From IMG/VR virus record IMGVR_UViG_3300035698_002736, positions 1-20,485 of that record: a stretch of 20,485 nt of DNA; one strand, given 5' to 3'. The notes beneath the pieces were generated by a model. It was not told where the DNA came from, did no database searches, and worked only from the letters and a program-made list of their open reading frames with translations. Position 1 is the first letter of the stretch. Every line of letters starts with the position of its first letter. Origin of the DNA: a virus. The position numbers and the translations under genes were made by a program. Below, piece after piece: positions 1 to 17,520 of this stretch.

Positions 1-2386
1 CATCACGTAGAGCCTGTGTATGTTCTTTTATTTGTTTAGTTTCAAAAGCTCGTGCATCTGTTATCTTTAATATTTCGTCTTCTAGAGATTTATCAAATTC
101 ATCTGCTAACGCACCAGTAGCAATCCCCACTTCACGTATTACTTGTGCAGCAGTTTTACCCTCTAGACTAAGATTCCGCAATGCCTCCGCAACATCATTA
201 TCCGCAATGTCAGCAGTTTTGATTAATTGCTCGATTAACTTATTTATACTCTGTTGTACCGCCTCCGGGTCTTCAATATCAAATCTATCTGTAAAGTCTC
301 CAGACTGTAAGAAGCCACCACCAAACTGATTTGTATTAAAGCCGCCCCTAAAGTCCTGCCCTGTTAAATCTAAACCCGCAGCACTTACCCCACCTAACAT
401 ACTATTAATTAATCCTGATAGGTTCTTAGCTATTGCCGGGTCGGCATTCTTAGAGCCAAAGTTAGAAACGCCGCCAGATGTTTCAAATTCCGATGCTTGC
501 GTTGCAGTACCCGGTCCGAACAAGCTACCAATTAATGCACCAACCGGCCCACCTAACATGCCCCCGATTTTAGCACCTTTAGTTCCACCCAAAGCATCGG
601 CTGCCATCGACCCAAGCCCCATGGCTACCTGTGCTGCAATTATAGCTGCACCAACTGGATTGGCTGATGCACCCGCCATTCCAGCACTACCAATAGAACT
701 TAAAAAACCACCACCACCACCGCCGCTAGCACCACCGCTACCACCAATAAGACTCGAAATATTAAAGCCGCCGCCAGCACCGCCACCACCTGAACCCATT
801 ATCTGTTGTGCAGCAATATCAGCAAAGTTCTTAATGGCTGCATTCTTTATGTTATCAAATACACGCTTGCCAACACTCTCTAGATCGTCAAAGTTCTTAA
901 TAACGTCTTGCAGTGCTTCACTTACACCACCCTGTAACTCAGTTGCGAAAGTTTCGGACTCTTTGGTTAATTCTGCTAAGTCCTGTGATTTGCCCGCTAA
1001 TTCACCGATCTTGTCTATTTCATTACTATATTGCTCGATCACTTCCGCACGAGTTAATTTCTCTGCTTTCATTACCGCAATAATAGCTTTCCGGCGTGCA
1101 ACCTCTATAGCTCTTTGTTTGTCAGATAATAATAATAGGTCGTATTCAAATTGTTGTTTTTCTAGTAAATCGGCTGATACTGTTATGGCTGTCTTCTGAT
1201 TTCCTAATAATCCGCGTAGGTTCTTGCTCAATTTTATGGTTGCCTTAGAAGATTTTACAGTTTCCTTTGTTGATTTTACAGTTTCCTTTGTTAATTCTTT
1301 TGTATTAGTTTTAGCTTCATTGATCTTTTCGTTGTAAACTTCGTCAAAAGCCTTAGCGAAATCATCATCGATAATACCTAGCCAGTTACCTAACTTAACA
1401 CCAGCATTCGTGAACTCCTCCCCTAGAACCTCAGCACCCTCTTTTATCTTACCTAGGGTGATAATTCCCATTTCCCCAGCTTTAATTAAGAGTGCAAATG
1501 TATTTCCTAATAATTGTAGTCCATTTTTAAACTCTGGTTCATTTAAAGCATCTGCAAGGCTGTTAATACTCTTCGTAACCTCATCTAAAAAGCCAGAATT
1601 TTGGGCGGCATCAGCAAAAGCATCTCTTGTTGAGTTTTTCAATTTAGCCATAGCTGACTCATAAGTATTTGACATACTTACGGCAGCACCCTCATTTTCT
1701 GCTAGTGCTTGCGTTAATGCGGGTAATATATCTTGTGCCGTTACTTTACCGGTTGCGATAAGGTCTTTTAGTTGTCCACTCTTTAGCCGTAATGCTGAGG
1801 CAACCTTAGAAAAACTACCGGGCAATCTGTCAGTAACTTGTCGTAAATCCTCAGTTGTAACCGTTCCAGCCGTCAAGGTCTGTGATAACCCTAGGAATAA
1901 TCCTTGAGCTTCACCAGAATTTAAACCGAACGCCTTAATATTGTCACCTACTAATTTAAGTATCTTTTCCATTTCACTGAGTGAAATAGCTCCATTTTTT
2001 ACGGCAGGCAATAAACGGTTGTAACCATCTGCAAGGTCGAGTAAGTCCACTGATTGTTCGGCTGATGCTTTACGTAGAAACTGCATAGCATCAGCAGCCC
2101 CCTTAATACTACCAGTTGTTGCAACAAGCCTAGCATTTAGTTGCTGCATATCACTTGCAGCCTTGATCATCTCACGCCCAACGCTAGCAATACCCAAGCC
2201 AGCAATAACACCACCTAACGCCTTGAATGAAGTACTTAATTTACCAACACCACTATCAACTGTTTTAAGGCTTTTATCCATGCCTTTAGTTGTTTTGTCG
2301 AGCGTATCACCAGCCTTTTTAAGTGTGCGATTATACTGGCTGTCATCTGCTCGTAGTGATATTACTAATTCATCAACTGTTGTCAT
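1..2386 (-). CDS. Tail tape measure protein (3' end beyond window)
   Basis: The tape measure sets tail length and is threaded inside the tail tube during assembly. The frame starts with ATG at 2386 and stays open to the window edge (about 795 codons), so the C-terminus is missing. The start (MTTVDELVISLRADDSQYNR) and the following segment, with LNARLVATTGS and DLLDLADGYNRLLPA, resemble the tape-measure N-terminal domain, roughly residues 60-270. Residues about 366-379 hold an exact 7-residue tandem repeat (STKETVK type) in a coiled-coil region. Residues about 530-615 are glycine-rich, then hydrophobic (small Ala/Gly/Met residues), as is usual for these proteins. The gene begins 14 nt inside the end of the chaperone frame, implying translational coupling. 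Length, composition and position after the chaperones make this call very likely. Confidence 0.93.
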   Translation of the reverse strand, partial: MTTVDELVISLRADDSQYNRTLKKAGDTLDKTTKGMDKSLKTVDSGVGKLSTSFKALGGVIAGLGIASVGREMIKAASDMQQLNARLVATTGSIKGAADAMQFLRKASAEQSVDLLDLADGYNRLLPAVKNGAISLSEMEKILKLVGDNIKAFGLNSGEAQGLFLGLSQTLTAGTVTTEDLRQVTDRLPGSFSKVASALRLKSGQLKDLIATGKVTAQDILPALTQALAENEGAAVSMSNTYESAMAKLKNSTRDAFADAAQNSGFLDEVTKSINSLADALNEPEFKNGLQLLGNTFALLIKAGEMGIITLGKIKEGAEVLGEEFTNAGVKLGNWLGIIDDDFAKAFDEVYNEKINEAKTNTKELTKETVKSTKETVKSSKATIKLSKNLRGLLGNQKTAITVSADLLEKQQFEYDLLLLSDKQRAIEVARRKAIIAVMKAEKLTRAEVIEQYSNEIDKIGELAGKSQDLAELTKESETFATELQGGVSEALQDVIKNFDDLESVGKRVFDNIKNAAIKNFADIAAQQIMGSGGGGAGGGFNISSLIGGSGGASGGGGGGFLSSIGSAGMAGASANPVGAAIIAAQVAMGLGSMAADALGGTKGAKIGGMLGGPVGALIGSLFGPGTATQASEFETSGGVSNFGSKNADPAIAKNLSGLINSMLGGVSAAGLDLTGQDFRGGFNTNQFGGGFLQSGDFTDRFDIEDPEAVQQSINKLIEQLIKTADIADNDVAEALRNLSLEGKTAAQVIREVGIATGALADEFDKSLEDEILKITDARAFETKQIKEHTQALRD
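1251..1292 (-). repeat. 21-bp perfect tandem repeat within tape measure gene
   Basis: Two identical 21-bp units lie at 1251-1271 and 1272-1292. They encode two copies of a heptad (TKETVKS), followed by a degenerate third (SKATIKL). A unit of seven codons fits a coiled-coil length module in a tape measure protein, where whole-heptad duplication can change length without breaking the helix. Confidence 0.85.
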
Positions 2387-3106
2387 GATACGTTTTATCC
2401 TTGATCTTTCTTAGAATATTCTTGAGTGACTTTCCTTGCTTCTCTTCTTCTGCCGTAATCTCATCTAGTCTATTGGCTTTTTCTATAATGTCATCTTTAG
2501 ATATATATTGGGGTAACTTAACGCCATGAAAGGCTGCGTGACTAGCAAGATCATTACGATAAAACTCTGTAAAACCCTCCATTGCATCAGCAACCTCCCA
2601 GACGTTGGAATCCCAGAAATCCCTAGGACTCCATTTTAAAACACCTAAACAGAACTTTCTGTACTCTTTGAAAGGAAATCGGATAGTACTTTTTTCTGGC
2701 TGTCTTGATTCTTCTGGTGTGCTTCCATTACCAGTGTCATGAACGCCAGTACTTTTTCGCGGCGTTCTTCTCGTTTTTTTTTAGGCACGGAAGTTAAACA
2801 AGTAAATTCAACTAGTAATGATCTTACTTCGTCAACTCCGAAATCCTCAACAATCCATTCGGCAAGAGAATCATCCTTAATATCATCAACCGCAGAATCA
2901 ATATAGCATCTTATTAGCTTTACTAATTCTTTGGTTTTCATATCAAATATAGTTTCCGCAATATTCGCAGGGTGCATATCGTAAGTTTCTTCAATTAACT
3001 GATAAGCTTTGAAACCAGCATACAAAGTAACGACTTGCCTCCCACATTCAATCTTAAACTTAGGGTCAACTAAATTTTCAATGTCGATATATCTTTTAAT
3101 TTCCAT
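2373..3106 (-). CDS. Tail assembly chaperone, -1 frameshift fusion (G-T-like)
   Basis: This is the predicted frameshifted product: frame 0 from ATG 3106 through the nine-A run (2774-2782), then the -1 frame to the TGA at 2373-2375, about 244 residues (111 + 133). The -1 frame has a TAA touching the A run and is then open for 133 codons. Its distinctive part, FPFKEYRKFCLGVLKWSP then RDFW, matches the GTA-type tail assembly chaperone family (Phage_TAC_6/PF09550-like, with the LxxSPxxFW signature). That segment lies upstream of the only internal ATG (2582), so a 69-residue product started there would lose the family core. Lambda gpG/gpGT is the known model of such fusions. Frameshifting is inferred from frame structure and not measured; initiation at 2582 as a separate short protein is the alternative. 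Confidence 0.72.
2645..3106 (-). CDS. Tail assembly chaperone, unshifted form (G-like)
   Basis: A 153-residue protein starting MEIKRYIDIENL, one nt after the previous gene's stop. The N-terminal ~100 residues (CGRQVVTLYAGFKAYQLIEE and following helices) resemble the GTA gp10/Phage_TAC_11-like chaperone that sits between tail tube and tape measure genes; this is recognition by pattern and position. The C-terminal 42 residues after the KKK motif are the frame-0 continuation beyond the slippery run and are highly charged (KKKREERREKV). As in lambda, most ribosomes would make this short form, which with the fusion product coats and delivers the tape measure protein. It does not become part of the virion in known systems. 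Confidence 0.75.
   Translation of the reverse strand: MEIKRYIDIENLVDPKFKIECGRQVVTLYAGFKAYQLIEETYDMHPANIAETIFDMKTKELVKLIRCYIDSAVDDIKDDSLAEWIVEDFGVDEVRSLLVEFTCLTSVPKKKREERREKVLAFMTLVMEAHQKNQDSQKKVLSDFLSKSTESSV
2774..2782 (-). promoter_or_regulatory. Slippery run for programmed -1 frameshift (A9)
   Basis: On the coding strand nine A residues follow CCT and precede CGA. Frame 0 reads CCT-AAA-AAA-AAA-CGA, so the last seven form A_AAA_AAA, a permissive X_XXY_YYZ heptamer. In the -1 frame a TAA formed by the T of CCT and the first two A residues closes the frame just upstream, and the frame is then open for 133 codons. That is the arrangement expected if the run is the shift site. I did not identify a convincing downstream pseudoknot by eye. 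Confidence 0.7.
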
Positions 3107-3107
3107 T

Positions 3108-3470
3108 CTAATCTATAACCTCCATTTTAACCGCAAGAACACTAAGTGTAGTAACGCCACTATAAGTCAATGCAACAAGCCCACTAGAGTTTTTATAAGC
3201 TTCATCACGGGTATCTAGTACCTGCCATGCACCAGAAACACTAGTAGCTACTGCATTCGCAACGGCTGCAATTCCCTTAGGAGTTCCAACGGCGGTTGCC
3301 GCACTTGTTGCTGTTATTGTTTGGCTACCTGTTGAAGCATCAAAGATATAGAGTACTGTAGTATTACTCCATGTGAATGTATCACCCCCGCCAGCCGCAG
3401 TTTCTAAGTTAGTAGTTAAATTAAGTCCTGCACCCGCTCGTGGTAAAGATTGTACTGTTAAAGCTACCAT
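3108..3470 (-). CDS. Small beta-rich virion protein, function unassigned
   Basis: A 120-residue protein rich in Thr, Ser, Ala and Val, with alternating beta-strand patterns and no transmembrane segment. The opening MVALTVQSLPRAGAGLNL, the central GGGDTFTWSNTTVLYIFDAS and the closing ALTYSGVTTLSVLAV resemble a small protein often seen among phage structural genes and annotated as hypothetical or decoration-like. It lies between the tail tube and tail chaperone genes, and its TAG is one nt from the next ATG. A structural or accessory virion role is inferred from neighbourhood and composition; the exact location in the particle cannot be read from the sequence. Confidence 0.7.
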   Translation of the reverse strand: MVALTVQSLPRAGAGLNLTTNLETAAGGGDTFTWSNTTVLYIFDASTGSQTITATSAATAVGTPKGIAAVANAVATSVSGAWQVLDTRDEAYKNSSGLVALTYSGVTTLSVLAVKMEVID

Positions 3471-3483
3471 TGTTATATACTCC

Positions 3484-3894
3484 TTATGCGTATGTTATTG
3501 TTCCACTAGAAACTAGTGAAACCGTGAAAGTTTGTGCATCATCAAAACCACCAGAAATATCAAAACTAGCAACTTGGAATCCTCCAGTTAATGTATTATT
3601 AGAAGCACCGTACAATAACTGATAATTATAAATATCGTCAGTTGTCGCATTGGTTTTTAATAATTCTTGTTGTGTTGTTTCTGTATAGACTCCAGCAATA
3701 GAAAGATCTACTGTTTTAGTTCCAGCACTCTCTAGTAACTCTCTCCAACCATTAGATGATTTATTAGTAATATCTACGCTCTGATTGTTAATTGATACTG
3801 ATGCTGTTGTTAAATTAGCAATAGTAGTATAAGTCGTACTACCAGCACTATCCTCGATCTTTAGTACCAGATCCCGTCCTTTATCTGCCGCCAT
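3484..3894 (-). CDS. Major tail tube protein (TP901-1/GTA family)
   Basis: A 136-residue protein that would polymerise into the tail tube around the tape measure. The start MAADKGRDLVLKIED, the segment VSINNQSVDITNKSSNGWRE, and LLESAGTKTVDLSIAGVY match the TP901-1-type major tail protein, which in gene transfer agents has the same layout (KGRDLLLK...VDVTN...WRELL...G). Length is normal for the family. It sits between a DUF3168-type neck gene and the chaperone pair, the standard order for these siphoviruses. A short A-rich leader (3895-3915) separates it from the upstream gene. Confidence 0.9.
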   Translation of the reverse strand: MAADKGRDLVLKIEDSAGSTTYTTIANLTTASVSINNQSVDITNKSSNGWRELLESAGTKTVDLSIAGVYTETTQQELLKTNATTDDIYNYQLLYGASNNTLTGGFQVASFDISGGFDDAQTFTVSLVSSGTITYA

Positions 3895-3915: not shown

Positions 3916-4326
3916 TTAAACTTCTTTAGTTAAAGCACGGAATCTTATAACACCATGGTAAGTTGTCATATTATCCGTACGCTCTTCAAAGATATTTCCA
4001 AAATCCCATCTTAGAAATATCAATGTTTGTCCAGTTACTGATAAATTAACATCATGTAGTAAAACGTTTACCCTTGTTGTTATCTCATGTAGTAACTTTT
4101 TATCTCTACCTTGAGTGAATGCGTGTAATGTTATTAACGTATCCGCTCCATCAGTAGTTTTATCGTCAAAAGGTGTTGCGTTAAAATCCCCTATTTTTAT
4201 ATAAGGAAAAGTAGCATTGTCCGGCACTCCATCATATACAGCATTAATCATAGCCATTAGAGTACCATCACCAGTTAATGTGGTATATATAGCCTCTTGT
4301 AATTCTTCGCCTGCATAACCTGTCAT
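3916..4326 (-). CDS. DUF3168-type tail completion protein
   Basis: A 136-residue protein. The N-terminal helix (EELQEAIYTTLTGDGTLMAMINAVYDGVP), then FPYIKIGD, DTLITLHAFTQG and a C-terminal YHGVIRFRALT strand follow the DUF3168 pattern, a tail-terminator-like fold acting at the head-tail interface. The ATG at 4326 overlaps the end of the HK97 gp10-like gene (ATGA), so translation is coupled. Position just before the tail tube gene agrees with tail termination or completion. Confidence 0.85.
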   Translation of the reverse strand: MTGYAGEELQEAIYTTLTGDGTLMAMINAVYDGVPDNATFPYIKIGDFNATPFDDKTTDGADTLITLHAFTQGRDKKLLHEITTRVNVLLHDVNLSVTGQTLIFLRWDFGNIFEERTDNMTTYHGVIRFRALTKEV

Positions 4327-4766
4327 TTCTTTTTATTATCCTCTATTACTCTAGCTACTGCCTTTGCAATTGATTTGCTTATTTTTGGCTTCATGCTATG
4401 AAAAACAGGAACCCACGCCGGTCTTGCACCCATTTTACTAGTTCCGAACTCTAAGAAACTAGCATAATCTAACCTACTAAAAACATCAGCACCCAACCCA
4501 TCATCAACACGTCTGGTATTAATACTATTAACTAACTGTCCAGTATCGCTTTTCGGGGCTTCACCGGCGGCAGATGATTGATGTGTAACGGTTTTCCGTT
4601 TGTAAACTATACCACTCCTAGAACCTGTATTAATTTCCCTTTTAAGTTTTGTTTCATATTCTAACGCTAATACTGTAACAGTTTTTTCAAGCAACTTACG
4701 GTCTTCACGGGCAATCTTGCGTAGTTTAGTCATTATGGATTTACCGCCGGTTACTTCACTTTTCAC
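4323..4766 (-). CDS. HK97 gp10-like head-tail joining protein
   Basis: A 147-residue basic protein. The central pattern (GSRSGIVYKRKTVTHQSSAAGEAPKSDTGQLVNSI) and the following YASFLEFGTSKMGARPAWVP are characteristic of the HK97 gp10 family: a proline-containing AP.sDTG.L motif, then Y...lEfGt....ARP. These proteins act at the neck, between connector and tail terminator. The start overlaps the preceding adaptor gene by four nt. A later internal Met (MTKLRKIAREDRK, residue 12) could also be used, because the first 11 residues are not typical of the family. Confidence 0.88.
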   Translation of the reverse strand: MKSEVTGGKSIMTKLRKIAREDRKLLEKTVTVLALEYETKLKREINTGSRSGIVYKRKTVTHQSSAAGEAPKSDTGQLVNSINTRRVDDGLGADVFSRLDYASFLEFGTSKMGARPAWVPVFHSMKPKISKSIAKAVARVIEDNKKK

Positions 4767-16579: not shown

Positions 16580-17326
16580 TCAGGCTGTTGAATCACCAAA
16601 GAAAGTCTTAAAACTCCACCCCCTACCGAAACGTGAGGCAATTCTACAAGCAAAATTCTCATTTATCCATTTTGCTTCGAATAATTTTGGTTCAACGTTG
16701 ATTATTGTCTTTTCTTCCTCGTTGAACTCCACAATTGCAGAATTCTTAAACCATAATTTATAATCCCTTTCACCAACTTCACGTAAAATTTGATTGTGTA
16801 CGTTTTGAAATGTTTTCGTTGAAATGATTTGCTGGCAATTTGTCAATCCTGTTGATTCTTGCTCCACCCTTAACGAGGATTTTTTTTTATTTTTAATTTT
16901 TTTCTTCTTAACAGTCTTAACAGTATTGTTTATGTCTTCCTGTCGTTCTCCTGTCGTCTTCCTGTCGTCTTCCTGTCGTTCTTTTCCTCGGTATTGACTA
17001 TAGTTTACTATAGCTATCTTATTGATAACGCCGGTTTTTATAATTTTAATCTGTTGTCTGCTTTCTAGCAATTTTATAAAATTTTTCAATTTTGTCCGTG
17101 ACCATTTCCATCTTTTACATAATGTCTCTTCTGAACGTGCGACCTCACCTTTTTCCACAATAACTAGGTTATTTCTTATGTAAAATTCTCTTGGTTTTTC
17201 GCAGTGTCGAGCAAGTAATAATAACTCAACCCAAGCTTGGCTTTTTGTGAATGGTTCTGATAACCACATGGGATTATCCATTATTTTCCTATGAATCCCC
17301 ATCCAGCCTTGCTCTTCATCAGTCAT
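16580..17326 (-). CDS. Phage replication initiator (winged helix + DnaA-N-like)
   Basis: A 248-residue protein. Residues 1-112 (GWMGIHRKIMDNPMWLSEPF, TKSQAWVELLLLA, KGEVARSEETLCKRWKWSRT and following) form a DNA-binding winged-helix domain typical of phage replisome organisers. Residues 113-158 are a hydrophilic, Lys/Arg-rich linker. Residues about 172-242 (NQILREVGERDYKLWFKNSA, then VEPKLFEAKWINENF) resemble the DnaA N-terminal domain, which contacts helicase or partner proteins. The gene carries 11-bp iterons and an AT-rich tract in the linker-coding part, so the origin may lie within the gene as in lambda O. No helicase or loader gene is seen in the window. The exact family name is uncertain. 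Confidence 0.8.
   Translation of the reverse strand: MTDEEQGWMGIHRKIMDNPMWLSEPFTKSQAWVELLLLARHCEKPREFYIRNNLVIVEKGEVARSEETLCKRWKWSRTKLKNFIKLLESRQQIKIIKTGVINKIAIVNYSQYRGKERQEDDRKTTGERQEDINNTVKTVKKKKIKNKKKSSLRVEQESTGLTNCQQIISTKTFQNVHNQILREVGERDYKLWFKNSAIVEFNEEEKTIINVEPKLFEAKWINENFACRIASRFGRGWSFKTFFGDSTA
16880..16910. other. AT-rich tract, candidate DNA unwinding element
   Basis: A 31-bp stretch with only two C residues, mostly T on the plus strand, lies about 24 bp from the iterons and is joined to them by two exact tandem copies of CTTAACAGT (16907-16924). It encodes a Lys/Asn-rich linker in the replication protein. Confidence 0.55.
16934..16977. repeat. Four 11-bp iterons, candidate replication origin
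   Basis: Four contiguous units: GTCTTCCTGTC at 16934-16944, 16956-16966 and 16967-16977, and the variant GTTCTCCTGTC at 16945-16955 (plus strand). The 11-bp period is not a codon multiple, so the encoded residues differ from unit to unit (RQED, DRKT, TGER, RQED); conservation is therefore at the DNA level. Eleven bp is close to one helical turn, placing units on one face. Lies in the initiator gene beside an AT-rich tract, as in lambda ori. Confidence 0.7.
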
Positions 17327-17520
17327 ATCTAACCTATTATATTGCTTTTATTAATTGCTTTTATTAACCGAATAGTGTACAGTAGATATATTAACGTGTA
17401 GTAGTATGTTATTGTGTTTGTGTACTATGTTATGTTAGGTCACCCTTGGTGAAATAACTACCCCTCAAGCCCTCTAACCACCTGTTATTGTTTGTAATAT
17501 TATGTTGGGGGGGCTTGTTT
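17327..17520. other. Noncoding gap between methyltransferase and replication genes
   Basis: 194 bp without a plausible gene. It holds a perfect 13-bp tandem repeat (ATTGCTTTTATTA at 17341-17353 and 17354-17366) and a small inverted repeat TCACC-CTT-GGTGA (17440-17452) that could bind a regulator. A run of seven G on the plus strand lies near the methyltransferase end. A TATAAT occurs at 17336-17341 (minus) but has no good -35 and is very close to the ATG. Confidence 0.55.

Follow-up and report, generated by a model that had tools for sequence, protein, structure and literature searches.

The window analyzed here, a 20,485-base virus record whose structural genes are all read on the minus strand, contains a tail gene that is overlapped in the -1 frame by a second coding part with no conventional start. 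The question raised by this locus is how that second part is expressed. An earlier note, made from the letters of the window, proposed that a programmed -1 frameshift at a run of nine A's joins two tail chaperone domains of the kinds known from gene transfer agents (GTAs). We examined the frames, the two domains, and the corresponding genes of related phages and GTAs.

Frame structure and gene order

The structural genes were found in the order terminase, portal, capsid, connector genes, tail terminator, major tail protein, small tail protein, chaperone gene, and tape measure. The features needed here are as follows.

3484..3894, minus strand: major tail (tube) protein (PF06199, E 2.1e-28)
3108..3470, minus strand: small tail protein between the tail tube and chaperone genes (phrog_16194, E 1.3e-7)
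2645..3106, minus strand: zero-frame ORF of 153 aa, putative gpG-like tail chaperone with a GTA gp10-like N domain (hhalign to a gp10 alignment; gene position)
2781..2783, minus strand: TAA shutting the -1 frame on the 5' side of the nine-A run, which it abuts
2774..2782, minus strand: nine-A run, codons AAA AAA AAA, with the slippery heptamer A AAA AAA at 2774-2780
2741..2767, minus strand: candidate stimulatory stem-loop GAACGCCG..UGGCGUUC, 8-bp stem, 6 nt after the run
2373..2774, minus strand: -1 frame continuation, putative gpT-like part, 133 residues plus a stop at 2375-2373
2565..2681, minus strand: Phage_TAC_6-like core RFPFKEYRKFCLGVLKWSPRDFWDSNVWEVADAMEGFTE (hhalign, BLASTP against phage L018, sub-threshold Pfam)
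2..2386, minus strand: tape measure protein (TMP_3; PF20155, E 1.8e-32), continuing past the window edge

The chaperone gene lies between the major tail protein and the tape measure, as G/GT genes do, with one small tail protein intervening, and the start of the tape measure overlaps the 3' end of the -1 ORF. The zero frame ends with a TAG at 2645-2647, and the nine A's are its codons 109-111, with CCT directly 5' of them. Because the -1 frame TAA at 2783-2781 abuts the run, the -1 frame can be entered only at or after the A's; it then overlaps the zero frame for 42 codons after the slip site. There was no ATG, GTG, or TTG in the -1 frame upstream of an ATG at 2582, which is itself downstream of the LGVLKWSPRDFW core, and the zero-frame TAG overlaps no start codon of the -1 frame. 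The coordinates and frames in the earlier note (the TAA abutting the run and 133 open codons to 2373) were therefore confirmed on the minus strand, as was its placement of the LGVLKWSPRDFW core ahead of any ATG in that frame, to which the absence of GTG and TTG can be added. Its predicted product of about 244 residues agrees with the frame arithmetic, by which slippage at the run would yield 111 + 133 = 244 aa.

A AAA AAA at the run was the only zero-frame A7 heptamer in the 4,396 structural-gene codons of the window and the only canonical X XXY YYZ zero-frame site inside the -1 overlap. Two A9 runs occur on the minus strand of the window; the second, at 16880-16888, is within a 248-aa ORF (17326-16580). 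The probability of the -1 frame being open by chance was 0.028 over the 42-codon overlap (codon shuffle) and 0.0009 over the 88 further -1 codons (base shuffle). Openness of the zero frame over the overlap was uninformative, as that frame was always open when only the -1 frame was taken to be coding. Within the 42-codon overlap, a small sample, base composition by codon position resembled that of a gene when taken in the zero-frame phase (0.57/0.31/0.40), but did not when taken in the -1 phase (0.40/0.57/0.31); beyond the zero-frame stop, composition in the -1 frame was gene-like.

The stem-loop formed by GAACGCCG and UGGCGUUC, which the earlier note had omitted, has a predicted energy of -11.8 kcal/mol (z -1.65), placing it in the lowest 4% of 45-nt windows, and a stem as good at that spacing was found at 0.9% of positions. 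Its geometry is typical of a frameshift stimulator, with modest statistical support.

Identity of the two halves

Direct family searches of Pfam, PHROGs, and NCBIfam returned no usable match for either half. No close relative of the gene was found in viral contigs scanned with each half or in phages searched with the fusion by tblastn, and PDB sequence profiles gave no credible relative. Single-sequence AlphaFold models were of poor quality (pLDDT 48 and 51). We, therefore, sought relatives through the major tail protein, the portal, and g10.

The earlier note had offered PF09550 as a check on the -1 product. Pfam placed that product below the curated cut-off (E 0.24; 12.3 bits compared to 23.4), and a PF09550 genome search of the contig found no match. 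At the profile level the assignment held: against alignment A4, built from the second domains of twelve relatives with members passing the PF09550 cut-off, hhalign gave a probability of 96.9 (E 1.9e-10), and the control, the C-terminal 44 residues of the zero frame, had no hhalign match. BLASTP also aligned the -1 product, at 33% identity (E 7e-10), with the second domain of phage L018, whose portal is 43% identical to that of the window. The predicted -1 product is, by profile comparison, a Phage_TAC_6 relative.

Membership of the N-terminal part in PF11836, also proposed earlier, fared less well. The zero-frame product had no Pfam match to PF11836 at E 10. Residues 17-96 matched gp10 alignment A3 weakly by hhalign (probability 45, E 2.2e-4), and an unrelated neighbour used as a control did not match. 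These data are suggestive, at the level of sequence profiles, of a resemblance between the N part and GTA gp10 (PF11836).

Arrangement of the two domains in phages and gene transfer agents

Slippage of the G/GT kind is widely conserved in long-tailed phages (PMC5009743), and the TP901-1 slippery sequence GGGAAAG has been studied by mutation (PMC4493119). Lambda gpG/gpGT and TP901-1 gpG/gpT are both chaperones made by -1 programmed frameshifting; the window differs from them in its A9 run (A AAA AAA), in having 42 more zero-frame codons beyond the slip site, and in its TAC_6-like second domain. A Rhodobacter phage genome paper describes a frameshift as "usually found" in tail chaperone genes (PMC8601537).

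In contigs and phages reached through the major tail protein, the corresponding position between tail tube and tape measure is occupied by a PF11836 protein and, after it, a PF09550 protein. Relative to the first domain, the second is usually read in the -1 frame, and a zero-frame heptamer comes shortly 5' of the first stop. The arrangements were as follows.

L002: A AAA AAG followed by TAA; -1 join
L004 (Oceanospirillum phage vB_OliS_GJ44): A AAA AAG followed by TAG; -1 join
L010 (Marinomonas phage P12026): A AAA AAG; -1 join
L005 and L008: G GGA AAC; -1 join
L006: G GGA AAA with a hairpin of -20 kcal/mol; -1 join
L009: A AAC CCT; -1 join
L012: C CCA AAG; -1 join
L003: C CCT TTA; start annotated at the g10 stop
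L011: -1 arrangement, no canonical heptamer
L001 (IMG/VR): in-frame fusion in a single open frame, both domains by Pfam
L007 (Rhodobacter phage RcapNL gene 16): in-frame fusion in a single open frame, only PF11836 reaching the Pfam threshold

Annotated records among the -1-joined relatives list two separate genes. This is so for vB_OliS_GJ44 and P12026, which, like the window, have the TAC_6-type frame in -1; their heptamer is in the first gene, 0 to about 20 codons before its stop compared to 42 in the window. In L018 the second domain (17190-17390) is in the -1 frame, a canonical heptamer is absent, and a TTG occurs 14 nt past the g10 stop. The -1-frame second domain of L022 (18800-19051) has neither a canonical heptamer nor any standard start before the domain.

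These relatives bear on whether the ribosome is what slips. Bacterial polymerases are known to slip on runs of nine A's, and RNA polymerase adding an A within the A9 run would leave part of the mRNA encoding the fusion directly, with the same protein resulting. We regard such transcriptional slippage as possible but unlikely, given that the heptamers at which most relatives connect these domains (AAACCCT, GGGAAAC, CCCTTTG, AAAAAAG) are no long homopolymers and that the window has a hairpin at ribosomal spacing. The varied non-homopolymeric sites of the relatives favour the ribosome as the device of this family.

The in-frame fusions raise a different scenario. L001 and RcapNL gene 16 have a gp10-type domain followed by a TAC_6-type domain, like the window, but in one frame with no shift needed. 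The window is a publicly available virus contig, and a homopolymer assembly or sequencing error could have hidden a true A10 run and a simple fusion of this type. This is very improbable in our judgment, the composition of the overlap being what a zero frame in use up to its stop would give (small sample). The RcapNL gene (3929-4501, 190 aa, gp10 plus TAC in frame) has an A7 run at 4265-4271 between its domains, where slippage, as in dnaX, would cut the product short and could provide the short form.

The RcGTA genes g10 (rcc01692, PF11836) and g10.1/g10.5 (rcc01693, TIGR02216/PF09550) correspond to the putative domains of the window in kind, order, and place. They are described as separate genes or as tail chaperones 1 and 2, with frameshifting unmentioned (PMC11409702, PMC9765227, PMC7296036), and no report of frameshifting or slippage in GTA g10 was found in the literature searched, which was largely that outside subscription journals. 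The window does not have the make-up of a GTA cluster (short tape measure, GTA-type head-tail cluster, bacterial chromosome). Example GTA-type loci had tape measures of about 180-260 aa, compared to more than 795 aa in the window, which is a virus record, and had DUF2460 downstream where checked.

We analyzed 80 GTA-type g10 loci, mostly from Hyphomicrobiales, and added 27 loci from 192 sampled alphaproteobacterial genomes, some of which may be prophages. In the first set, a TAC_6 domain was detectable in 79 loci, and in 75 of these it was in the -1 frame of g10, as in the window. Two architectures were seen, each in about half of the GTA-type loci examined. In the first, most g10 products have about 102-112 aa, and the g10 stop codon overlaps the ATG or GTG start of the second gene (ATGA/GTGA), so that the -1 relation is forced by the overlap itself; this overlapping start is what the window does not have. 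In the second, g10 measures 110-159 aa, a start ahead of the domain is missing from most of the second genes, and the final g10 codons hold a zero-frame slippery heptamer (AAACCCT, CCCTTTG, CCCTTTC/TTTCCCT, GGGAAAC, or AAAAAAT). In examples of this startless class both domains pass Pfam, and TIGR02216 labels the second "rcc01693 family". Ancylobacter and Filomicrobium provide instances of the startless type.

Across the 80 loci, the final 66 nt of g10 contained 58 zero-frame heptamers, compared to 6 and 3 in the two remaining frames. Heptamers were present in 25 of the 27 loci without any start compared to 17 of 48 others (Fisher p 8e-7, with related loci counted as independent). Across all loci, g10 tails without ATG or GTG had 0.047 zero-frame heptamers per codon (40 heptamers; 3 and 3 in the other frames), as opposed to 0.0021 per codon in g9 and g12 and 0.0020 in the g10 core, making slippery heptamers about 22 times commoner in startless tails than in neighbouring genes; these rates exclude PFPW-encoding sites and count related loci as independent. 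For the GTA clade with CCCTTTCCCTGG, we considered whether the heptamer is there only because the -1 frame encodes a conserved PFPW motif; the enrichment persisted after such sites were excluded. A tree built from g9 and g12 requires 12-13 changes between the two modes of expression. Independent, well-supported pairs on the tree pointed in the same direction without significance (median p 0.22; low power).

Other arrangements also occurred. Five loci of GTA type or prophages (L112, L129, L130, L150, and L154) had no start and no canonical X XXY YYZ site; several of them have CGCCCTCC or a similar sequence near the g10 end, and they may represent non-canonical slip sites or missed starts. In L141 and L143 the second gene is in the frame of g10 with its own ATG past the g10 stop, a third alphaproteobacterial arrangement.

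The contrast drawn in the earlier note, in which the GTA pair is simply two separate genes and joining is peculiar to the phage, did not survive these comparisons: about half of the GTA-type loci are startless with a zero-frame slippery site, and in-frame fusions exist as well. It had named, as evidence against slippage, relatives whose second domain is provided with a start and lacks a slippery run; these do make up part of the family, and no such start is present in the window. Production of the TAC_6 part as a separate protein, from a rare non-ATG start or by termination-reinitiation, is what the ATG or GTG at the g10 stop in about half of GTA-type relatives would suggest, and it is the scenario in which we place almost no confidence for the window, where no ATG, GTG, or TTG precedes the core and the TAG overlaps no -1 start. 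Taken across these loci, alphaproteobacterial GTAs and related phages probably set the ratio of two chaperones by -1 frameshifting or stop-start overlap, used interchangeably and swapped about a dozen times, with g10/g10.1 being one frameshift gene in about half of the lineages.

Proposed expression and its meaning

We conclude, with a probability of roughly 0.85, that the minus-strand gene at 3106-2373 encodes a tail assembly chaperone of the lambda G/GT type and is expressed by -1 slippage at the A9 run. Most ribosomes would read the zero frame and make the 153-aa product. A minority would slip back one base on AAA AAA AAA (A AAA AAA), assisted by the downstream hairpin, and would make a protein of about 244 aa with a gp10-like domain and a TAC_6-like domain. 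If the two forms act like their lambda counterparts, coating of the tape measure would fall to the short one and recruitment of tail tube subunits to the long one.

We infer slippage, its efficiency, and these roles from the frames and the absent start, the lone canonical heptamer, the hairpin at 6-nt spacing, the TAC_6 homology, the gp10 resemblance, and the gene order, together with independent relatives that have a -1 second domain and a zero-frame heptamer and the heptamers in startless GTA g10 tails. The joining of a TAC_6-like domain to an upstream chaperone by a -1 shift, as first suggested for this locus, is thus supported by the TAC_6 profile, the L018 match, and the heptamers of relatives. 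Counting against it are the weak homology of the N domain, the modest z-score of the hairpin, and L018 itself, the nearest TAC relative, with its missing canonical heptamer and its TTG after the g10 stop.

The G/GT frameshift itself is already known, and the gene of the window would add one more case. For the window, this reading accounts for a second domain that had gone unannotated and predicts that the chaperone comes in a long and a short form. For many GTAs, it would mean that g10 and g10.1 have been misdescribed as two independent genes. If slippage has been kept in long-domesticated GTA particles, tail assembly would still be selected for a controlled chaperone ratio. The point that merits testing is that GTAs have repeatedly exchanged one mode of expression for another; swaps among frameshift, stop-start overlap, and in-frame fusion would be a natural experiment on the importance of the G:GT ratio.
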